A model generated the notes under the pieces. The model saw nothing but the letters and a program-made list of their open reading frames with translations. It was not told the origin of the DNA and did no database searches. Shown here in pieces: positions 5,075 through 55,827 of a DNA stretch of 64,000 bases; the first letter of the stretch is position 1, and every line of letters starts with the position of its first letter. Location of the stretch: assembly GCA_024399065.1 (NCBI GenBank), contig JAKSIB010000005.1:1-64000 (forward strand), read 5' to 3'. The DNA is from Fibrobacter sp. (GTDB taxonomy: Bacteria > Fibrobacterota > Fibrobacteria > Fibrobacterales > Fibrobacteraceae). The position numbers and the translations under genes were made by a program.

Positions 5075-5605
5075 TTAACGTTTCCGAGCGGCTTTGTGGA
5101 ACGAGTCGACATAATCGTACCACAGCTTTTTCCTTAATGCGAACTGACGGGTCCAATACCGCATAGCCATAAGACGTTGCAGATTATACAACATATCATC
5201 GGTAATCTTCGTGGCGCCTTTATGTATAGGCGCCTGTTTAATGATACGCACATATCCTACAGGCTTCATCGGTGTGACTTCGATCAGGCCGGCATTTTCC
5301 GGAAGCCGTTCAAGAACATAATCAGTCATATAGGACGGGACTGCATAATAGAACTGTTTAATGTATTTAGATTCGTGACCAACCTTCTTTTTAAAATCGG
5401 CCAAAAAATCGGACGTTGAAATCTTGATTTCGATCTCAGTGCAATACTTTGCTGCTGACACAGAAATCAAGTCGGCCTCATGCCCAAACATCCAAGCGCA
5501 TTTGTTTACAACAACCGGATGCGTACGGAAAAATGCTGGACTTTGCTTTCGCTGCGTAAGAGCATTTTCCATGTCTATGGTAGTGAGTTTAAGCTTCTGT
5601 GACAT
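5075..5605 (-). CDS. MmcB/PD-(D/E)XK nuclease-like protein
   Basis: A 176-residue protein. The core resembles the MmcB-type restriction-endonuclease fold: EADLISVSAAKYCTEIEIKISTSDF has a D, then an E.E.K element (EIEIKIS near residue 57), followed by HESKYIKQFYYAVP and later VLERLPENAGLIEV. In this family the E.K pair contributes the nuclease site. Substrate is unknown; DNA repair or host DNA breakdown are possibilities. The start overlaps the end of nrdG by 17 bp, so it is translated with the reductase genes. Confidence 0.5.
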   Translation of the reverse strand: MSQKLKLTTIDMENALTQRKQSPAFFRTHPVVVNKCAWMFGHEADLISVSAAKYCTEIEIKISTSDFLADFKKKVGHESKYIKQFYYAVPSYMTDYVLERLPENAGLIEVTPMKPVGYVRIIKQAPIHKGATKITDDMLYNLQRLMAMRYWTRQFALRKKLWYDYVDSFHKAARKR

Positions 5606-6116
5606 GGAATGTACCGTCTTTCTTCACCATTATGTTTTGATTAGAACTACCCCTGAATTTCAGTGACAGATCTTTCAATGATTCAACGAACGGGCCCACG
5701 ACCATTACGTCGGCAGCGAATAGTATGGAATCCGTATACATTGTATGTTGTGACCCGCCATCGGTCAAGTCACCAAATTTATAGCCTGTATATATCCAAA
5801 TCGTCTTTCTGCATTTACATGCAAAATCATCGGAAAAATATTTGGTAAACTGATAAATGAATTCAGATATCGCTTCCTGATTTTCCACTTCAAATGGTTC
5901 GCCGCCAAGAATCGTCACCCCATCAATATACGGCTTATCGCACCCTTTAATAATTTCATCGATAGTCTCATGGGTAAACGGCTGACCGTAGTCAAAATTC
6001 CATGTTTCGGGGTTGAAACAACCCTTACAGTGATTGCGGCAGCCACTAACCCAGAAAGCTACCCTGATACCATCGCCATTTGCTGTATCGTCAAATTTAA
6101 TTGCACTATAGTTCAT
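5589..6116 (-). CDS. nrdG: Anaerobic ribonucleoside-triphosphate reductase activating protein
   Basis: A 175-residue radical-SAM activase. The cluster-binding Cys triad is visible as C26-x3-C30-x2-C33 in GCRNHCKGCFNPETW. TILGGEPF near residue 72 is the GGE motif that binds S-adenosylmethionine. It installs the glycyl radical on NrdD, the gene immediately upstream. A GAGG ribosome site precedes the ATG. The gene lies behind an intrinsic terminator after nrdD, so its level may be set by read-through. Size fits the family. Confidence 0.92.
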   Translation of the reverse strand: MNYSAIKFDDTANGDGIRVAFWVSGCRNHCKGCFNPETWNFDYGQPFTHETIDEIIKGCDKPYIDGVTILGGEPFEVENQEAISEFIYQFTKYFSDDFACKCRKTIWIYTGYKFGDLTDGGSQHTMYTDSILFAADVMVVGPFVESLKDLSLKFRGSSNQNIMVKKDGTFHVTEA

Positions 6117-6128
6117 ACCGCCTCACAC

Positions 6129-6154
6129 AAAAAGACCCGGGAAACCCCGGGTCT
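6129..6154 (-). terminator. Intrinsic terminator or attenuator between nrdD and nrdG
   Basis: AGACCCGGG 6133-6141 pairs with CCCGGGTCT 6146-6154 (9 bp, 4 nt loop). Read on the minus strand it is followed by a U-run. It sits inside the gap between nrdD and nrdG. Confidence 0.75.
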
Positions 6155-6180
6155 AAAATATAGCAACATCGATCGGATTT

Positions 6181-8718
6181 TTAAATATTCTTGCGACGTT
6201 TCAGTTCATTTTGCTTACCGACACCCCAGCTCTTCTTGATCGACTGACCCGGGCGGCCAACCAGATAGCCAGTAATGCGACGGATGCGGAGAATGTTTTC
6301 GCCATCATCCTTCACGCCACAGTGCGGGCAGGTAGCACCAATGATTCCACGGAAACCGCATTCACGACAGGTATCCTGATCGAAAGTGATGGTAAAGTAA
6401 CCCAGATTGGCTTCATACATAGCACGGATTGCTGCCTCAACAGCGGCTACGTTAGATTCTGGATTACCTTCGATCTTGTAATAGAAGATGTGGCCAGCGT
6501 TGGTCAATGCATGGAATGGAGCTTCATTAGCCAGCTTGTTATCCAGAGTCGTTTCGATATCAAACGGCAGCATATGGCTGTTGGTATAATAACCCTTATC
6601 GGTAATGTTCTTGATGTTACCGTATCTCTTCTTATCCAATTCAGCAAAACGGCCGCATACGTTCTCAGCAGGCGTTGCGAATGTAGACCAGTTCAATCCG
6701 GTTTCCTTTTCCTTGCGGTCAGTGTATTCACGGATATGCTTAACGATGGACAAGCCAAAGTCAAACGCTTCCTTATCAATTCCATAGGTCTTGTCCAGCA
6801 GGATCTGGCAAACTTCATAAATGCCAATATAGCCAATTGAATTAGAACCCTGCTTCAATACTTCACGAATGGTATCCTGCGTATCATGCTTAACGTCATC
6901 AGATGTAAGATAGACGCCATTCTGCATCAGGAACGGGAAATTCTCGTACTTACGATTTGCAATCAATTCGTAACGATCCATCATTACGCCAGCGCACATA
7001 TCCAACTTCTCATCAAGTTCCTTCCAGAACGATTCAATCGGCGTATCGGTCTTCGATGCACGCAGAGCAATGGCAGGAAGGTTAATCGTAGTGAACCACA
7101 GGTTGCCACGGCCATCGGTCTGAGAAGGACCATTAATATTGCCGATTACACGGGTACGGCAACCCATTGAGGCGATGGCTGTTTCAGGACGCAACCACTT
7201 AAACACCACATCAGAACCTTCTACACGGTCAAAGGTATAATACTTGCCGTCAATAGCATACTCAAACTTATTATGGTAAATTCCAATATTGGATGCAAGA
7301 TCATCAATAGTCACGTCAACGACATCATTGCTTGCAATCTTCTGCAATGAAATTGTTTCGCCAACCCCCAAAGACACACGAGTTTCGTCAAACTTAACGT
7401 ACGGACGATTAAATGTTGAATCCACACTAACAAAATTTGGGTAGAAACGCTTTGCACAGATACGGCATGCCATCTTCCACAGATCATAGTTAGGATCACC
7501 CGGAATTGCACTGATACCGGCCATCATCTTAAATATGGATATCGGGAAGATACAGGTGGAACCATCGCCAAGTCCAGCATCGGTTGCTCGCATTAAATTA
7601 CGGGAAACCATTCGGCCACACTTAGTAGTATTCAATCCAAAGTTGATGGACGAGAACGGAAGCTGGTTTCCACTACGGCTAAACAAACTGTTCAGGTTAT
7701 GAACCAATGCTTCCATAGCCTGATAAGTATCCTTGTCCGTCTTAACAATGGCTCGTTTCACAACCTTCTTAGGAATATTCCAGTCACCAAGATACATGTG
7801 ATTAGCGGACCTGTTCATGGTAACATATTCAGGCATAGTCACCTTGGTATTATCGTATTCCATGCCATCGATCGTAACGGTAGCCCCGATAATCGAAATG
7901 AGCTTAAATGCCTCAATAGCCTTATTGTCACCAGTATAGTCAATATAGGCTTCAATTTCATATGCCAAGTTCTTTCGGAAACTGCGATCTACATAAACAG
8001 CCAGATCGTCATCCAAATGCGCATAAGCCTGACCACCATACATTTGATTCTGGTTGGATTGAATGATAATGCTGCCAAGTGCCGCAGCGGAGCCAATTGA
8101 GTTAGGGGAACGAATATAGCCATTACCGGTATCAAAACCACGTTCAAGAAGCTTTGCAAGTGGGATGAACAGGCAGTTCATGGTCAGCGCATAATAGTCA
8201 AGGTCGTGAATATGAATATCGCCGGACTTGTGCGCATCAGCATGTTCACGCTTGATAAGGTTAATCAAATTGTAGCGTTTCCACGCTTCGCCACCAGCCT
8301 TTGCATAAGACGTGGCAACGGTAGCGCCATTGACATTACCGTTGTCACGCAAGAGGTTAGACGAGTTCAGGTCAGCGGCGGCAATCTCCTTGATTACCTT
8401 ATTCAATTCATTCTTGGTTTCACGAACACGGGTACGTTCCTGACGGTAGAGGATAAATTCCTTTGCAGTCTTCCCAAACGTGTGCGCCATCAACATCTGT
8501 TCAACGACATTCTGCACATCTTCAACAGGAATCGATTTTCTCTTACGTTCCAACAAGATAGCTTCGCATTCTTCTTCAACACGTTCAACAAGATGATCAA
8601 TCTGTTCTTCCGTATAGGATTCTCCCGACGCAGCAAACGCATTTTTTATGGCACCAATAATCTTCGTCGGATTCCAAGCACGTCGCCTGTCATCACGCTT
8701 TATAACTGATTTAATCAT
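6181..8718 (-). CDS. nrdD: Anaerobic (class III) ribonucleoside-triphosphate reductase
   Basis: An 845-residue reductase that makes dNTPs without oxygen. Residues 5-95 are an ATP-cone allosteric domain (IKRDDRRRAWNPTKI). The catalytic MGCRTR cysteine is residue 520. The C-terminus has two CxxC zinc pairs (CRECG, CPHCG) and the glycyl-radical loop RRITGYLVG. It is longer than the roughly 600-710 residues usual for T4 and E. coli NrdD. Two stretches look inserted: about residues 259-325, and about 442-510 directly before the catalytic Cys. An AGAGG ribosome site supports the start. Two NrdR-like boxes lie 125-165 bp upstream. Confidence 0.95.
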   Translation of the reverse strand: MIKSVIKRDDRRRAWNPTKIIGAIKNAFAASGESYTEEQIDHLVERVEEECEAILLERKRKSIPVEDVQNVVEQMLMAHTFGKTAKEFILYRQERTRVRETKNELNKVIKEIAAADLNSSNLLRDNGNVNGATVATSYAKAGGEAWKRYNLINLIKREHADAHKSGDIHIHDLDYYALTMNCLFIPLAKLLERGFDTGNGYIRSPNSIGSAAALGSIIIQSNQNQMYGGQAYAHLDDDLAVYVDRSFRKNLAYEIEAYIDYTGDNKAIEAFKLISIIGATVTIDGMEYDNTKVTMPEYVTMNRSANHMYLGDWNIPKKVVKRAIVKTDKDTYQAMEALVHNLNSLFSRSGNQLPFSSINFGLNTTKCGRMVSRNLMRATDAGLGDGSTCIFPISIFKMMAGISAIPGDPNYDLWKMACRICAKRFYPNFVSVDSTFNRPYVKFDETRVSLGVGETISLQKIASNDVVDVTIDDLASNIGIYHNKFEYAIDGKYYTFDRVEGSDVVFKWLRPETAIASMGCRTRVIGNINGPSQTDGRGNLWFTTINLPAIALRASKTDTPIESFWKELDEKLDMCAGVMMDRYELIANRKYENFPFLMQNGVYLTSDDVKHDTQDTIREVLKQGSNSIGYIGIYEVCQILLDKTYGIDKEAFDFGLSIVKHIREYTDRKEKETGLNWSTFATPAENVCGRFAELDKKRYGNIKNITDKGYYTNSHMLPFDIETTLDNKLANEAPFHALTNAGHIFYYKIEGNPESNVAAVEAAIRAMYEANLGYFTITFDQDTCRECGFRGIIGATCPHCGVKDDGENILRIRRITGYLVGRPGQSIKKSWGVGKQNELKRRKNI

Positions 8719-12704: not shown

Positions 12705-15545
12705 ATGTCATTTAACGGAATTCACAATCTCCGTGACGCTAAAGAGAGCGTCAAGTACCAGCCATGGCAACTGGCTGAGATCAAGAGATGTTCTGAAGAC
12801 CCTATCTACTTCATCAATACATATGTGTATATCAACACGAAGGATAACGGAATGCAGCTATTCAAGACATGGCCATTCCAGAATGAAGCTATCAAGCGTT
12901 TCCTAAAATACCGTTTTAACATCAACCGATGGAGTCGTCAGGTCGGTAAGTCGACAATCGTTCGTGGGTTCATACTTTGGCATGCCATGTACCATAGTGA
13001 CCAGCTGGTAGCAATGCTCGCAAACAAACTTTCTCTAGCTAAGGAACAGCTACAGCTACTGCGTGACTCGTATGTTGCACTCCCGTACTGGCTGCAGCCC
13101 GGTGTCAAGCTATGGAACAAAATGTCCATCCAGTTTTCAAACAATACCCGTATAATCGTGGCGGCGTCGTCACCTGACGGTATCCGTGGTTTCTCCCCCA
13201 ACCTGCTATATCTGGACGAATTCGCATTCCTACGTTCAGGCATGGCCGATGAATTCATGGCATCAGTATTCCCGGCCATTTCATCAGGTAAGAAAACCCG
13301 TGTGATCATCACAAGCTGTGTCACTAAAGATACAATGGTATTCACACCAGACGGCATCAAAACCGTTGACGACTTCATTATTGACGATGGCCGCCGCCTT
13401 GGTTACGAGGTACCGGATTATCAGGTTCTGGGCCGTTATGGAATGAATCGTGGCCACATCATGCATAATGACGGCCATAAGGCGACGAAGGTTGTGGAAA
13501 CCCAATATTCAAGCATTGAATGCTCGCTAATGCACAAGTTCTGGGTTTGCCGTGATGGTGAATACAAATACATGCGTGCGCATGAACTGAAGCTAGGCGA
13601 CTACTTGATGGTACGGTATGGAATGAATTGCTGGGGTAATGATGAAATCAACTATACCCAACATCATGACGGATTAAGCATAAACGCAATAACACCTGAC
13701 TTGGCATATCTGTTTGGATTATATATTTCAGCAGGAGATATTAAGGATCAAACGTTATGCTTAACGATCGATGATGACATATCTACTTTGTTACGCAAAA
13801 TGAACCTGACAAATTATAAGCGTGACCAATTCCAATATCAGATTGCAAGCGCCGATATAGTAGACCTATTTAAGTTCGTTGGGTTCAATACCAAATTGCC
13901 AGCAACCCAAAAGGAAATACCCCCACGCTTAATGCGTATGAGCAAAGAATGCACGGCAGCCATGATTCAAGGCATGATGGATGGCAATGGTTGCACAACG
14001 GCGACACGTAAGCGTATTTCCTACACATCCACATCGCACAAGCTGATTAAGCAGCTCCGCATGCTTCTATTGAACTTCGGTATACTGTCGGCTATGGATG
14101 ATAAATATTCTCACGATATTGGCGGTAAACCAGCCCGAGAGTATGTACTACAGGCAACACGAGATAACCCGGCCCATTACGATATTATACCGTTCTCGGC
14201 ACAGGAAATCAGACGTCTTAAAAAAACGAACGTGCTAACTAAGGACATGATCAAATTAACCGACGGATGGCGTGGAAAAGGTCAACAGCATTTAAGCAGG
14301 AAACTTATTCTTGACATAAAGGCTCAATTACCACAAGACATTATCGATGCGGAGCCAGTGTTCCAGAACGCAGAACCCGATTTTGTGTGGGCCCCAATTA
14401 CCAAACTTACAGATAGCGAAAACGATGTATTCGATTTCTCGCTAAATGACGACAATTACGGCGGCGAGCAGTGGGCTCACTCGGTCATTTACAATGGTAT
14501 AACTGGTAGGCAAACTCCCGCCGGCCTTAACCACTTCTACCGAATGTGGGAAGATGCCGTCGAAGAAAGTACCGCTTCCTACCACGACCTCATGTCCAAG
14601 TATGTCAAGTCCACAGTTCTGTGGAGCGAGGTTCCGGGTCGTGACCAGCAATGGGGTGTAGACGAAATGGCCCGTATCGGCGAACAGAAATTCCGACAGG
14701 AATATGAATGCGAATTTGTGGGTTCTGCAGTCACACTTATCGACTATAAAATCCTCCAGAAACTCAAGGCATCCAAGCCTATCGCAATCCCGAACATTCC
14801 CAAAGACTATATGGTCAGAATGTTTAAGCGTCCAGAAAACAAGCAGAAGATGGAGGTTAACAAGTGGGTTTACGTTGCATCAATCGACAGTGGCTACGGT
14901 ATCCGAAAAGACTATCATGTTCTTCAGATTCTATTAGCCAAGCACAGTCTTGACGCTGAGCAAGTATTCGTAATGTCATCTAATACAGTGACCATCGAAG
15001 ACTTCTGTTCACTTGCATACAAAATACTGAAACTATACGGAAACCCACCGTTAACAATCGAATTCAACGGTCCGGGTTCACGAACATACGGAATCATGTT
15101 CAACCAGTTAGATTACGAGAATATTGTAAACTACGATAACAAGTTACACGGTCTATGGGCGACAAATGCGATCAAGCAGACAGCCGTTATGCTATTAAAG
15201 CTATATGTGCAGCGTTTCTATCTAAAGCTGCATGATGAGGCTACCATTACCGAACTAATGTCATTTACCCAATTGACGGTAAATAAATGGGGTGGTAGCG
15301 GCGGCAACCATGACGACAATGTGACGGCACTATACTGGGCCATCTACTACATGGCATCAGAATTCTTTGAAGGTGAACAGAAGGAAATGCGGTTCATGGA
15401 TGGTCTAGAGCTGGCATTTGCGTCTGCCGACAATGGCGATGCAGAGAATGCGGCAATCGAATTCATGAACGACGACTATGCAAAGGCAGAACAAGCTGCA
15501 ATGGGAGCATTAGAGAAAACATCTGGATTCGAAAACCAACGCTAA
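12705..15545 (+). CDS. terL: Terminase large subunit with in-frame intein
   Basis: A 946-codon reading frame made of a T4 gp17-like packaging motor split by a 399-residue intein. N-extein (residues 1-204): Walker A WSRQVGKST (76-84), Walker B LLYLDEFAF (168-175) and the start of ATPase motif III, RVIITS. C-extein (604-946): TPAGLNHFYRMW completes motif III. The RNase H-like nuclease follows with SIDSGYG..KDYH (about residue 728), IEFNGPGS and a final HDDNVTALYWA acidic site. The spliced protein would be about 547 residues. It powers DNA packaging at the portal and cuts concatemers. A TerS-like gene is far away at 42088. Confidence 0.95.
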   Translation: MSFNGIHNLRDAKESVKYQPWQLAEIKRCSEDPIYFINTYVYINTKDNGMQLFKTWPFQNEAIKRFLKYRFNINRWSRQVGKSTIVRGFILWHAMYHSDQLVAMLANKLSLAKEQLQLLRDSYVALPYWLQPGVKLWNKMSIQFSNNTRIIVAASSPDGIRGFSPNLLYLDEFAFLRSGMADEFMASVFPAISSGKKTRVIITSCVTKDTMVFTPDGIKTVDDFIIDDGRRLGYEVPDYQVLGRYGMNRGHIMHNDGHKATKVVETQYSSIECSLMHKFWVCRDGEYKYMRAHELKLGDYLMVRYGMNCWGNDEINYTQHHDGLSINAITPDLAYLFGLYISAGDIKDQTLCLTIDDDISTLLRKMNLTNYKRDQFQYQIASADIVDLFKFVGFNTKLPATQKEIPPRLMRMSKECTAAMIQGMMDGNGCTTATRKRISYTSTSHKLIKQLRMLLLNFGILSAMDDKYSHDIGGKPAREYVLQATRDNPAHYDIIPFSAQEIRRLKKTNVLTKDMIKLTDGWRGKGQQHLSRKLILDIKAQLPQDIIDAEPVFQNAEPDFVWAPITKLTDSENDVFDFSLNDDNYGGEQWAHSVIYNGITGRQTPAGLNHFYRMWEDAVEESTASYHDLMSKYVKSTVLWSEVPGRDQQWGVDEMARIGEQKFRQEYECEFVGSAVTLIDYKILQKLKASKPIAIPNIPKDYMVRMFKRPENKQKMEVNKWVYVASIDSGYGIRKDYHVLQILLAKHSLDAEQVFVMSSNTVTIEDFCSLAYKILKLYGNPPLTIEFNGPGSRTYGIMFNQLDYENIVNYDNKLHGLWATNAIKQTAVMLLKLYVQRFYLKLHDEATITELMSFTQLTVNKWGGSGGNHDDNVTALYWAIYYMASEFFEGEQKEMRFMDGLELAFASADNGDAENAAIEFMNDDYAKAEQAAMGALEKTSGFENQR
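13317..14513 (+). other. Intein inside TerL (residues 205-603) with degenerate LAGLIDADG domain
   Basis: The insert begins with Cys205 (CVTKDTMVFTPDG, intein block A) and has a block B-like CSLMHKFWV with His277. It ends with a block F/G-like stretch: VFDFSLNDD, HSVIYNGITGRQ, then Thr604. Removing it restores the expected terminase motif IITS-TPAGLNHF. The last intein residue is therefore Gln603, not the usual Asn, and the penultimate residue is Arg rather than His. Two LAGLIDADG-type helices are seen at 333-344 and 417-429. The acidic residue before the final Gly is Ala343 in one and Asn428 in the other. Confidence 0.85.
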
Positions 15546-17007: not shown

Positions 17008-17862
17008 TTAAGCAATACTGATGGTGACTCCCTCAACCGCCACCCTCAGTCCAAGCACTACATGAACCTGTCCGTATTCGAACGAGCATGTAATCTTAGA
17101 TTCATCCACAGCACGGGGAATGTGATACGACACTTCGTGCTTTCCGAGAAGATAGTCTGGGATGTTGATCTGTGATTCAATTTTAGGGCGTTTACCCTTC
17201 GAACCCTTGACCATCCCCTTGATACTATCGCTATATGTATTTCGTGTATACACGATCTTCACGTCGTTTTCCGGCGTAAGACTGATACTAACATCGTTCT
17301 TTTTTACGCCCGGCAAGTCTACAATGACATGGCATTCATTATTAGTCAGCACCAATTCAGAAAACGGTTCGTCCAGATAAAACTCAGATTGCGAATCACC
17401 TGAAATCGGAATATTCTGCGCCGGAGCAATAGGAGGTTGCTGAGGCTGCGGGTAATATTGTTGCTGCGGCGGGTAATACTGCTGTGGCGCCTGTTGCGCC
17501 GGCGGTGGCGGCATCTGCGGATTAAACGGCTGTTGTTGCGGTCTAGGCGGTTGCGGCGGCATCTGCTGAGGCATATTGCCGACACCACGGCCACGCTTCA
17601 CGTTAATCTGTCCGTCAATAGGGTTGGCCGCCGAAATACGTGCGGTCTCCTGCTGCATAGCCGCAATAGCCGCTGGGGAAATTTTAGACCCGTTTTCAGT
17701 TCCATCCATAATAGTCGATGTGTAATCAGGCTGGCCAGTAAAGATCAAAGTATCTGAATTATCCATTTTTCGTCTTCCTTCTAGTTTGACAACTTCCGGT
17801 GTTTCATCATCATTATGTGACGTGCCGAAAAGTTTCCCAAGCAAATTCCCGAAAATTCCCAC
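17008..17862 (-). CDS. Hsp20/alpha-crystallin-like protein with Pro/Gln-rich linker
   Basis: A 284-residue protein. The C-terminal 125 residues look like an alpha-crystallin domain: FSELVLTNNECHVIVDLPGVKKNDVSISL (strands 2-4), then VKIVYTRN, and a late SYHIPRAVDESKITCSFEYGQVHVVL. The N-terminal half starts with an amphipathic MGIFGNLLGKLFG. It contains a roughly 60-residue Pro/Gln/Tyr-rich low-complexity segment (about residues 100-155). Small heat-shock proteins occur in several T4-like phages and may help virion protein folding. The gene begins 3 bp after the sigma factor stop, so the two are one operon. Confidence 0.65.
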   Translation of the reverse strand: MGIFGNLLGKLFGTSHNDDETPEVVKLEGRRKMDNSDTLIFTGQPDYTSTIMDGTENGSKISPAAIAAMQQETARISAANPIDGQINVKRGRGVGNMPQQMPPQPPRPQQQPFNPQMPPPPAQQAPQQYYPPQQQYYPQPQQPPIAPAQNIPISGDSQSEFYLDEPFSELVLTNNECHVIVDLPGVKKNDVSISLTPENDVKIVYTRNTYSDSIKGMVKGSKGKRPKIESQINIPDYLLGKHEVSYHIPRAVDESKITCSFEYGQVHVVLGLRVAVEGVTISIA

Positions 17863-17865
17863 ATA

Positions 17866-18672
17866 TCACTCCAATGAATTTCGTAGTTCGGCGAATTCCG
17901 GTCGCTTGCGCAGTTTAGCCAATGCGGCATTTTTTGCACGCCTGATTAACTCGGTACTAATACCACGTTCGTCGGCAATCTCGGCAGCGGATTCTTCGTA
18001 TCCGTCAAACCCATATATTCTGCGTAATAAATTATTCTCTTCTGGGCTTAATGTAGACTGCATCAGTGAAAAAATGCTGTTTTGAAGCAATTCCTGTTCA
18101 TGATTCGCATCAGTACGTTCTGACGACGGTACTACATCACTAAGAGTTGACGACTTGTCGGATGTATCAGATGAATTCACTGGCTGGTCAAGCGACATTG
18201 GCATCGACACGGCATTTTCAGCAAGATCGGCATACGACACCCCATCAAGGCTTTCGCCATGCTTCTTAGCCTTCAGCACACGTTTTCGCATGCGAACCGG
18301 AACATGCACCATATCGCTATTCTGGACAATCAGGTCCATGTGGCGACGGATCTCCCACACAGCAAATGACCCAAACTTCACACCAATAGTATGATCATAC
18401 TTATGAAATGCTTCAATCAACCCAAGCTTACCCTCGGCAAAGAAATCGTTTATCGGCATCCCGGTATTCTTCTTATAGTCCTTGGCCAACTTCAGAACAA
18501 ATCTGAGGTTTGATTTAAGGATGCTGGTCATCAGCTCTTCCTTGCGGGCCGGATTCTTAGTCAAGTGGTATTCCTTAAAACAAGCTTCTTCGGCAGCACG
18601 TCCAAGAATCTTGTACTTAACTGTTTCTTCAATTAATTGCTTAGTGCTGATATCCTCTTCGAAAGTTTTCAT
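17866..18672 (-). CDS. Sigma-70 family RNA polymerase sigma factor
   Basis: A 268-residue sigma factor. Region 2 spans about residues 45-120: NLRFVLKLAKDYKKNTGMPINDFFAEGKLGLIEAFHKYD, then FGSFAVWEIRRHM. Region 3 is the short VHVPVRMRKRV segment. Region 4 is at the C-terminus: LSPEENNLLRRIYGFDG, with a helix-turn-helix SAAEIADERGISTELIRRAKNAALAKLRK. It is more complete than T4 gp55, which lacks a normal region 4. It is the obvious candidate to recognise the TATAAACT octamers across the window. A GGTAGG ribosome site precedes it. Confidence 0.9.
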   Translation of the reverse strand: MKTFEEDISTKQLIEETVKYKILGRAAEEACFKEYHLTKNPARKEELMTSILKSNLRFVLKLAKDYKKNTGMPINDFFAEGKLGLIEAFHKYDHTIGVKFGSFAVWEIRRHMDLIVQNSDMVHVPVRMRKRVLKAKKHGESLDGVSYADLAENAVSMPMSLDQPVNSSDTSDKSSTLSDVVPSSERTDANHEQELLQNSIFSLMQSTLSPEENNLLRRIYGFDGYEESAAEIADERGISTELIRRAKNAALAKLRKRPEFAELRNSLE

Positions 18673-18795: not shown

Positions 18796-19128
18796 ATGAA
18801 TACGAAACGCCTAGACATTCATGGGTCGTTGATCCTCAATTCTGACCAAGAAGCCTTCAGATTATTACTGAGCAAGGCTGTCCCAAAGCTTGTCAAATAC
18901 ACAAAGTCAATAGACGTCGGCAAGCAAACAAACAAGCCGGGATATGAATATCAGGATTACGTCATCACGATCAAAATGAGCCATGACAGGAATTCCTATG
19001 AAATATTCCGCAACAGGAACGGCGCCCTCGTATTCGCAGTTATTGACGGTAAAACAGTGAGCATCAACCATGAATACGTATTTATCGAAGATCACATCGC
19101 ATCTTTAATGAAGGATCAGAATGGCTAA
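18796..19128 (+). CDS. Unknown protein upstream of infA, predicted leaderless
   Basis: A 110-residue protein, not recognised. It has a helix (DQEAFRLLLSKAVPKLVKY) followed by four or five beta strands, a small alpha/beta fold. No ribosome site exists between the late octamer and the ATG. Its last 8 nt overlap the IF-1 gene, so the two are translationally coupled. A translation-linked role is possible only by association. Confidence 0.6.
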   Translation: MNTKRLDIHGSLILNSDQEAFRLLLSKAVPKLVKYTKSIDVGKQTNKPGYEYQDYVITIKMSHDRNSYEIFRNRNGALVFAVIDGKTVSINHEYVFIEDHIASLMKDQNG

Positions 19129-19339
19129 AGAGCAAGGCATAAGTGTCAGGGGCGTTATTATCGAGGAAATGGGTAATGCCTTTTTTAAAATCCAGATCGA
19201 ATCTGGACATCATGTGCAGGCCCGTGTATGCGGCCAGATGGTAAAGCACAATATACAGGTACATCGTGACGACTCAGTTCTAGTTGAGATCAGCCCATAC
19301 GACCTAGAACGTGGCAGAATTACATGGGTCTATAAATAA
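19121..19339 (+). CDS. infA: Translation initiation factor IF-1
   Basis: A 72-residue protein, the same length as bacterial IF-1 and alignable to E. coli IF-1 from memory without gaps. Conserved pieces are the N-terminal MAKE, GNAFFKI, ESGHHVQARVCGQM, and the C-terminal VEISPYDLERGRITW. This is the S1-type OB fold that occupies the ribosomal A site during initiation. AAGGA lies 6 nt upstream, inside the end of the preceding gene. It is flanked by phage genes and sits in a phage-promoter unit, so it is not host contamination. Confidence 0.93.
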   Translation: MAKEQGISVRGVIIEEMGNAFFKIQIESGHHVQARVCGQMVKHNIQVHRDDSVLVEISPYDLERGRITWVYK

Positions 19340-19359: not shown

Positions 19360-19520
19360 TCAACCATTTTGCACAATAGGGTCATCTATTATCAATGATT
19401 GGGTGATTTCCTGCTTCAACGACCTGCACTGTTCTTGTGTTTCAAAGAACTGTAACCTCAAGTCTTTGGGGTGTGGTTCGGAACCACTACCTTCCCTACA
19501 GCATTCACTGCAAGGGCAAG
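19360..19520 (-). ncRNA. Candidate omega-RNA scaffold overlapping tnpB 3' end
   Basis: TnpB guide RNAs derive from the 3' end of tnpB and extend into the flank. Here the minus strand shows GTGGTTC/GAACCAC (19473-19487), a GTTCTT/AAGAAC stem nearby, and the typical GTTGAAGCAGGAAAT stretch close to the end. The overlapping protein tail (EGSGSEPHPKDLRL) is of the sort produced when a coding frame runs through such a scaffold. Boundaries are approximate. Confidence 0.4.
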
Positions 19521-20730
19521 CTTCAACGGCATATCTTGCCGCAGTTTGCTGTGTAGCAAAGCCATACAGCCACAGGCCGTAGAAACGTAAGTTTCTGGCC
19601 GCATTTACATCTCTATCGTGATGGAAGCCACAGTGAGGGCAAGTCCATTCACGAGTAGTAAGTTTCAAATCTTCTTTCTTGTAGCAACCACAGTTTGAAC
19701 AATACTTACTGCTTGCATAGAACTGGGGCGCCTTGATTAGATGGATGTTGTGCCATCTGCACTTGTATTCCAACTGAGTATGAATTCTGCCAAAGTTTGC
19801 ATCCAGAATAGATGAAGCCAGCTTGCGGTTACGGCTCATATTCTTAGGCTTCAATGTCTCGATGACAAGCACCTTTGGTGCAAGTTTCCGAGTCAGTTCC
19901 GTAGTACACTGGTGGGCTGAATTAACACGGATATTAGTTATCTTACGATGAATCCTAGCAAGTAGCTTAACTGCCTTCTTGCGGTTCTTGCCACCTTTTC
20001 TTTTTCTAGTTACCGAGCGTTGTTGCCTTTTCAAACGGGTTAAGTGTTTTCTATAAGCAATAGGATTATGTATGGCCTCACCATAGGATGTGATGGCTAA
20101 ATCCTTGATGCCGAGGTCTACGCCAACTATATCGTACTCATCATCCGTGATTTCTATTGTTTCGTTAACTGGGACTATATCGGTAACATAGGCAAACGAT
20201 ACATACCATCTATCTGCTGTCCTAGATATGGTAGCCATAGACAAAGGCACTTTATCCACTCCGTCTGGAATAGCGATATAATCTTTTTCTTTCAGCTTGA
20301 CCTTGCCTAGAGTAGGAATCTGCACAAAGTCCCTTCCGATATAGACTGAACCAGTCACACGGAAGCTGTCATTGATGCCAAACTTATGGAATCGTGGGTG
20401 CTTACCCTTGTTACTGAAGAACTTCTTCCACGCAGTGCCAAGGTCTCGCAAGGCTTCCTGACCGCAACACTTAGAAAGCTCAAGCAGCCATTCGTTACCT
20501 TCCAGCCTCTTGTAAAGTACCCATTCCTTATGCCAGTCTATCGGAGTACCTAGCTTGCACTTGGGTTTGGTTCCTTCTGGGACTAACTTCTTGGCTTCCT
20601 CGTAGGCAGCGTTCTGCTGGGCAAGTTTCCAGTTGTATGCCCTGCGTGCGGCAGCACAAGAGCGGATGCATACCCGTTCCTGTTCCTTGGTGAGCCGTAG
20701 CTCTATCTTTCTGCCACACTGCTGTTCCAT
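19360..20730 (-). CDS. tnpB: RNA-guided nuclease TnpB (IS605 OrfB family)
   Basis: A 456-residue TnpB. The RuvC triad is visible: D205 in VGVDLGIKD, E291 in VLVIETLKPKNM, and D374 in HHDRDVNAARN. The zinc ribbon is C344-x2-C347 and C364-x2-C367. All catalytic residues are present, so it may be active. About 75 residues follow the last motif and probably reflect read-through of the omega-RNA region. Its AGGA ribosome site lies in the 3' arm of the hairpin 20740-20772, which could limit translation. It nicks or cleaves DNA next to a short target motif, guided by its omega-RNA. Confidence 0.92.
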   Translation of the reverse strand: MEQQCGRKIELRLTKEQERVCIRSCAAARRAYNWKLAQQNAAYEEAKKLVPEGTKPKCKLGTPIDWHKEWVLYKRLEGNEWLLELSKCCGQEALRDLGTAWKKFFSNKGKHPRFHKFGINDSFRVTGSVYIGRDFVQIPTLGKVKLKEKDYIAIPDGVDKVPLSMATISRTADRWYVSFAYVTDIVPVNETIEITDDEYDIVGVDLGIKDLAITSYGEAIHNPIAYRKHLTRLKRQQRSVTRKRKGGKNRKKAVKLLARIHRKITNIRVNSAHQCTTELTRKLAPKVLVIETLKPKNMSRNRKLASSILDANFGRIHTQLEYKCRWHNIHLIKAPQFYASSKYCSNCGCYKKEDLKLTTREWTCPHCGFHHDRDVNAARNLRFYGLWLYGFATQQTAARYAVEACPCSECCREGSGSEPHPKDLRLQFFETQEQCRSLKQEITQSLIIDDPIVQNG

Positions 20731-54907: not shown

Positions 54908-55827
54908 ATGATAAACAAGGCATTCAAGATACGGTTGTACCCGACAGTAAGACAGGAGAAGTTCTTCAACAAGACCTTCGGCACTTGCCGTTTCATCTAT
55001 AACCAGTTCATAGACTTGAAGAAGTCAATCTTTGAAGAGTCTCGTATATCATTTACGCCTAAGTTGGCCTCGTTCAAGGAGGAATGGCCTTGGATGAGGG
55101 AAGCCGACAGTCAGGGAATGGCTAATGCCTATATGGATGCCAAGGGTGCATACCAGAAGTTCTTTGATGGCAAATCACGCTATCCGAAGTTCAAGAAGAA
55201 AGGGGATAAGCAGTCCTACCGCAATGCAATGATGTCTAAGACAATGGAAACATTGATTCGGGGTGCTAGGAATGACCGCATATTCATTCCGAAGGCTGGT
55301 GAGGTCAAGTTCCGACAGGACTATGATTTCAAGTCATTGCCTATAACCAAAGTATGCAGTCTGACGATATCCAAGTCAAATACAGGCAAGTATTTCTGTT
55401 CCATCCTAGTGGAAATGGATGATGAACGGATGAAGTTGCCACCTAATCAAAATGATGTTGGTTTCGACCTCGGCATCAAGGATTTCCTGATAGACAGCGA
55501 TGGCTGTGTCATTGAAAATCCAAAATATTTCCGAAAGAGTGAGCAAAAGTTGGCAAAGGAACAGCGAAAGCTGTCACATTGCACCAAAGGCTCCAATAAT
55601 TATCGGAAGCAGAAGCATCGTGTCGCTCTGGTACACGAAAAAATACGAAACCAGAGAATTGATTTCCAGCACAAGGTCAGCAAGAGACTGATAGTAGAGA
55701 ACCAATGACTGAGGGAATGGATAAATCCATTAAGCCTGTTGATACTGGTGTGGTTGCACACCGTGATCAGGAAGCCTGTAATGCCACGGATGGGCACGGG
55801 GAAACCCACCCATCTTTAGTGGGTGGG
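54908..55827 (+). pseudogene. tnpB: Truncated tnpB, C-terminal catalytic half deleted
   Basis: The open frame 54908-55708 encodes 266 residues: the N-terminal RNA-binding part (MINKAFKIRLYPTVRQEKFFNKTFGTCRFIYN) and RuvC-I (VGFDLGIKD, D187). It stops at RLIVENQ, exactly where the RuvC-II glutamate segment should begin. In another frame the sequence resumes as TEGMDKSIKPVD..., then QEACNATDGHGETHPSLVGG, the usual TnpB C-terminal tail over the omega-RNA. About 110-130 codons with RuvC-II, the zinc ribbon and RuvC-III are missing. It cannot be a nuclease as it stands, but could still bind its RNA. Confidence 0.8.

Follow-up and report, generated by a model that had tools for sequence, protein, structure and literature searches.

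Phage initiation factors have long been catalogued, and the wider question is whether they alter the ribosome's choice of start messages. That question is raised by a gene for translation initiation factor IF-1 in the stretch of DNA analysed here (64,000 nucleotides, hereafter the window), the start of a contig of 164,362 bp (C5) within a 3.8-Mb Fibrobacter MAG. An earlier note, made from the letters alone, read the gene as a phage-encoded IF-1 that could retune start selection towards phage messages. We asked whether the product is an IF-1, where it came from and what it might do to the ribosome.

The IF-1 gene, its phage and the host

The product is recognized by the Pfam eIF-1a/IF-1 family [PF01176, 60.8 bits, E 9.7e-17, cut-off 30.2] and by the NCBIfam infA equivalog (TIGR00008) with 72.6 bits against a curated cut-off of 61.15. 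IF-1 of M. tuberculosis (3i4o) matches it with an E of 5.3e-18 and that of S. pneumoniae (4ql5) aligns over residues 1-72 without gaps. All four agree with the gapless 72-residue match, SPYDLxRGRI block included, that had been noticed at the outset; the C-terminal end of the translated ORF reads SPYDLERGRITWVYK. The AlphaFold model (mean pLDDT 87, with phage IF-1s as the input alignment) is a single OB-fold of five strands with a short helix, residues 38-42, between strands 3 and 4. In the PDB it is closest to solved IF-1s, among them 30S-bound E. coli IF1 (9fco) with a TM-score of 0.94, so the fold check proposed in the earlier note came out as an OB/IF-1 fold. By descent and predicted fold, the window gene is a genuine full-length IF-1.

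The contig is that of a T4-like phage, judged by its T4-type TerL with an intein, a phage sigma factor and a clade of related viral contigs, and the operon around IF-1 was rightly called a phage operon. The intein lies in the same gene in several relatives and is absent from others (e.g. L026, L033). Genes for an anaerobic ribonucleotide reductase were recognized by eye at 5589-8718 (nrdG-like 5589-6116; nrdD-like 6181-8718, with an ATP-cone start), and no tRNA was found in the 164-kb contig.

A second, ordinary infA lies on another contig of the MAG (C26) in the order secY-infA-rpsM-rpsK, and its product is 57% identical to the window IF-1. The MAG has five Fibro_Slime domain matches above the cut-off (0 in 14 control genomes), which point to Fibrobacter as its genus. 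The terminase of the window phage was present in one of 80 genomes of the same genus and absent from the other 79, which identifies the phage as a binned virus and not a genus-wide resident. The host link consequently rests on the binning together with the IF-1 tree described below, and the phage probably infects the rumen bacterium Fibrobacter.

Table 1. Features of the IF-1 locus and of the phage-type IF-3 gene (window positions unless a contig is named)
Feature	Position	Strand	Remarks
T4-type large terminase (TerL) with intein	12705-15545	+	marker for finding related phages
Hsp20-like gene	17008-17862	-	Pfam hit weak, under the cut-off; kept as a neighbour in the clade
Phage RNA polymerase sigma factor	17866-18672	-	contains sigma-70 regions 2 and 4; points away from the IF-1 pair; also a neighbour in the clade
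110-aa partner gene, family without a name	18796-19128	+	shares 8 nt with the start of IF-1; secondary structure predicted as helix / six strands / helix
Shine-Dalgarno-like AAGGA	19111-19115	+	5 nt upstream of IF-1 ATG, read from sequence; putative function
IF-1 homologue (infA family)	19121-19339	+	72 aa, ATG start; K39Q, R41V, R46Q, R70V (E. coli numbering with Met)
TnpB (IS605 OrfB type)	19360-20730	-	stop codon about 20 bp from IF-1 stop; adjoins the IF-1 unit, not part of it
Phage-type IF-3, locus L265	G000:C31:12929-13669	-	two IF3_N stretches and one IF3_C (weak)

A fixed locus and its descent

Related viral contigs of up to 422 kb, two of them from named rumen Bacteroidota MAGs, were gathered with terminase searches. 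With the window IF-1 as the sole query, IMG/VR yielded no relative; relatives were reached through the terminase and an alignment of IF-1s. In one clade the gene order is fixed: TerL, a 333-aa gene, a DCC1/thioredoxin-like gene, the Hsp20-like gene (reverse), the sigma factor (reverse), the 110-aa gene and IF-1. The 8 nt overlap between the last two, reported in the earlier note, is present at 19121-19128 (ATGGCTAA); it is 8 nt in most clade members and 23 nt in three. We consider IF-1 and its partner to be probably translationally coupled.

The partner gave no match in a Pfam search, no clear match of its fold in the PDB (Foldseek best E 0.32, VIA best Z 4.0) and no convincing relative among named phages; it may have a fold that is not listed there. 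Homologues lie close to IF-1 in L112 and L151, two phages further removed, and one more, on the opposite strand (L038:17473-17820), belongs to a phage from the subclade without IF-1. Since it persists there without IF-1, the partner may serve a separate function.

The TnpB gene beyond IF-1 is an insertion, missing at the IF-1 locus in the relatives compared. The guide RNA end of such an element would be expected to border or overlap the 3' end of IF-1, so that the locus could be a homing target of TnpB; a search for the element ends through repeats gave partial copies only. By eye, the contig has further TnpB-like genes, such as those at 54908-55708, C5:82900-84204 and C5:92944-94191; a gene resembling IS200 is seen at C5:104149-104547.

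In the terminase tree all carriers of IF-1 fall in a single clade of 23 rows (100/99), within which one internal subclade is without IF-1. The sister clade, with genomes of up to 419-422 kb, is also without it, as judged by whole-record searches of several members; some related records are fragments, and for these a missing IF-1 counts only for the part that the record covers. The distribution is consistent with vertical inheritance of IF-1 at a fixed locus with one later loss. Some members of the subclade that lost IF-1 keep IF-3, which makes IF-1 dispensable there. In informative close pairs the clade IF-1s give dN/dS of 0.04-0.15, indicating purifying selection; these values come from copies other than that of the window, whose closest relative found is only 61% identical.

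The comparison with host IF-1 proteins that had been suggested places the phage proteins among bacterial IF-1s, beside those of Fibrobacteraceae. The phage clade is recovered as a single group (100/91) in a tree of 136 IF-1s, and a further supported split (98/94) joins it to nine IF-1s of Fibrobacteraceae; the tree is coarse, with 72 columns, a long branch for the window row and IF-1s as its only OB proteins. F21 and D50 are common to nearly all IF-1s of the phage clade and of Fibrobacteraceae and uncommon elsewhere. The likely history is a single capture of IF-1 by the ancestor of the clade from a Fibrobacteraceae host lineage, and the grouping speaks for Fibrobacter as host without recourse to the binning. 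That the IF-1 is phage-encoded is borne out by the family models, the fold, the phylogeny, the conserved gene order and the purifying selection within the clade. A group of cyanophage-like contigs (L129, L134, L142, L173, L180) was omitted from the 136-sequence tree; its pairing with the window copy in a first tree was rejected as long-branch attraction, because the gene neighbours are unrelated (psbA-like, by eye).

Ribosome contacts and companion factors

A published study (PMC10913371) assigns R41 and R46 of IF-1 to the flipped-out A1492/A1493, K39 and M42 to G530 and H35/Y60/R64/R66 to the face towards S12, and describes R70 as critical for the E. coli factor. These positions were compared in a residue table of 129 distinct IF-1s and that of E. 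coli, the latter used for numbering only. Every one of the 49 bacterial IF-1s has R41, and among the other phage IF-1s 56 of 61 retain it. Throughout the clade of the window phage the position is E, T, S or V, a clade-wide loss of Arg41. The window copy is changed further: with Q39, V41, Q46 and V70 it retains no residue of the canonical basic set (K39, R41 and R46 at the decoding centre, R70 at the C-terminus). V70 is found in this copy only, with R70 in the 128 others of the table. Position 46 is K or R in most of its relatives and R70 is present in all of them. Y60, R64 and R66 are retained and H35 is R. The copy has a net charge of -0.15; that of the host IF-1 is about +2. With four basic contacts lost and a charge near zero, useful binding to the 30S A site could be gone. 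The five exceptions among the other phage IF-1s are those of the cyanophage-like contigs named above, in which IF-1 lies near 6001-6210. They have I41 and Q46, and their loss of the decoding-centre arginines is apparently separate from that of the window's clade.

IF-3 was searched for as well and is encoded by G109 and G111, two large IF-1-bearing relatives, and, besides the host copy, by contig C31 of the MAG. These proteins score 116-118 bits with the infC model (against 60) and have two IF3_N stretches followed by a weak IF3_C. G102, G103 (with one stop inside) and G170 likewise have profile matches that span the first NTD copy; in the two sister-clade records with an IF-3 match, the match does not begin until about residue 30 or 72. 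Contig C31 (42 kb) follows the gene order of G109 and G111, and if its high end is joined to the start of C5 the distance from IF-3 to TerL is about 41 kb (G109 about 33 kb, G111 about 45 kb). From this synteny and spacing C31 probably represents a further part of the window's phage. For IF-2 and ribosomal protein S21, the only match in the MAG is the single host copy and none was found in three large IF-1-bearing phage records. Shine-Dalgarno motifs precede 37-45% of phage genes and 24% of host genes (3-9% in control windows; start codons were chosen mechanically), a weak hint that the two classes of message differ. The difference being modest, there is no obvious sequence cue for a phage factor to act upon.

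What the phage IF-1 might do

The reading that we favour, and hold with moderate confidence, is that the captured, vertically inherited and altered IF-1 acts at the 30S A site with a phage IF-3 in favour of phage mRNA; it is ribosome binding, altered kinetics and a benefit to phage mRNA that we infer. During infection, phage mRNA would yield IF-1 together with the 110-aa partner, and the factor would enter the A site by its conserved S12-facing surface. Because K39, R41, R46 and R70 are lost while S12-facing and core residues are kept, binding would differ from that of host IF-1, most likely in being weaker or in faster release, and the decoding centre would be held less tightly. With the phage IF-3, the acceptance or speed of initiation complexes would then shift towards phage messages. 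The replaced contact residues and the IF-3 of relatives make altered initiation more plausible, yet they leave room for a non-canonical role. A more elaborate form of this reading, in which an IF-1 without grip on the decoding centre, the two-NTD IF-3 and the 110-aa partner make up a phage-specific 30S initiation complex with message-admission rules of its own, is less probable.

The same residues bear on three other readings. E. coli IF1 also acts as an RNA chaperone and in antitermination, and the phage protein, with its OB fold kept, its decoding-centre contacts lost and a phage sigma factor beside its gene, may have left initiation to become a small RNA-binding protein (an RNA chaperone or a transcription antiterminator), perhaps in phage transcription. 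We think this unlikely: the most strongly conserved blocks (SPYDLxRGRI, Y60, R64, R66) include the S12-facing ribosome contacts, K/R46 persists in most relatives and R70 in all, and their IF-3 points to initiation. Distinctly unlikely, too, is an inhibitor or decoy that competes with host IF-1 or sequesters contacts of S12 or IF-2, giving poor complexes and shutting off host translation. A kept S12 face without the rRNA-gripping residues would suit such a protein, as would the acidic residue in place of R41 in much of the clade; however, phage messages depend on the same ribosomes, we see no sign of a second mechanism protecting them, and weaker binding makes a poor competitor. The unchanged fold, length and core motif and the purifying selection in the clade would also be expected of an ordinary, equivalent spare IF-1 that raises the supply of the factor in a large burst, its residue changes being near-neutral drift. 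This we regard as quite improbable, since R41, invariant in the bacterial IF-1s examined, is lost clade-wide and apparently a separate time in the cyanophage-like group, and since the window copy has given up four basic contacts, including the R70 reported to be critical in E. coli (PMC10913371).

The binning of the contig with a bacterial genome, finally, might suggest a bacterial infA misassembled or misbinned into it, or a decaying remnant, and we hold this to be extremely improbable. Misassembly or misbinning of a host gene is ruled out by the separate host infA, only 57% identical, and by the recurrence of the locus in many viral contigs; the intact reading frame and the purifying selection in the clade speak against decay.

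The clade amounts to a natural experiment, in which one captured host gene with a likely donor family has changed clade-wide at a residue that contacts the decoding bases. The same clade also offers an IF-3 in which one domain is duplicated, and a subclade without IF-1 that can retain IF-3, and so supplies specific proteins and residues for work with reconstituted 30S subunits.

Compared with the nearest bacterial IF-1, that of Fibrobacter, the window protein has the same length, OB fold, SPYDLxRGRI block and Y60/R64/R66, is 57% identical and shares the F21 and D50 common to Fibrobacteraceae. It differs in K39Q, R41V, R46Q, R70V and H35R and in a charge of about 0 instead of +2, and its gene lies in a phage operon and not in secY-infA-rpsM. 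Among phages, Al-Shayeb et al. (2020; PMC7162821) describe huge phages with IF1 and IF3, and a paper on Jug phages (PMC12363816) names translation initiation factor 1A among their core genes; the likeness to both lies in large genomes that carry initiation factors and in the conservation of IF-1. The statement in the earlier note that such factors are reported in very large phages accordingly stands, but their rarity was overstated, as a scan of IMG/VR gave at least 553 stretches encoding IF-1 relatives, some of which may be bacterial contamination. The jumbo phages Cronobacter GAP32, Pectobacterium CBB, Serratia BF and Sinorhizobium Phosso also encode infC, and Phosso and LR756511 have both IF-1 and IF-3; among the matches listed, jumbo-phage IF-3s start at query residue 53 or later and none covers the first NTD copy of the clade's IF-3. 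The available portions of PMC7162821 and PMC12363816 mention neither a loss of Arg41 nor a capture from Fibrobacteraceae, and neither a 110-aa gene overlapping IF-1 nor an IF-3 with tandem NTDs. A phage IF-1 is itself already known; what is new here is its fixed locus, its likely capture from the host, its residue losses, its overlapping partner and the tandem-NTD IF-3.
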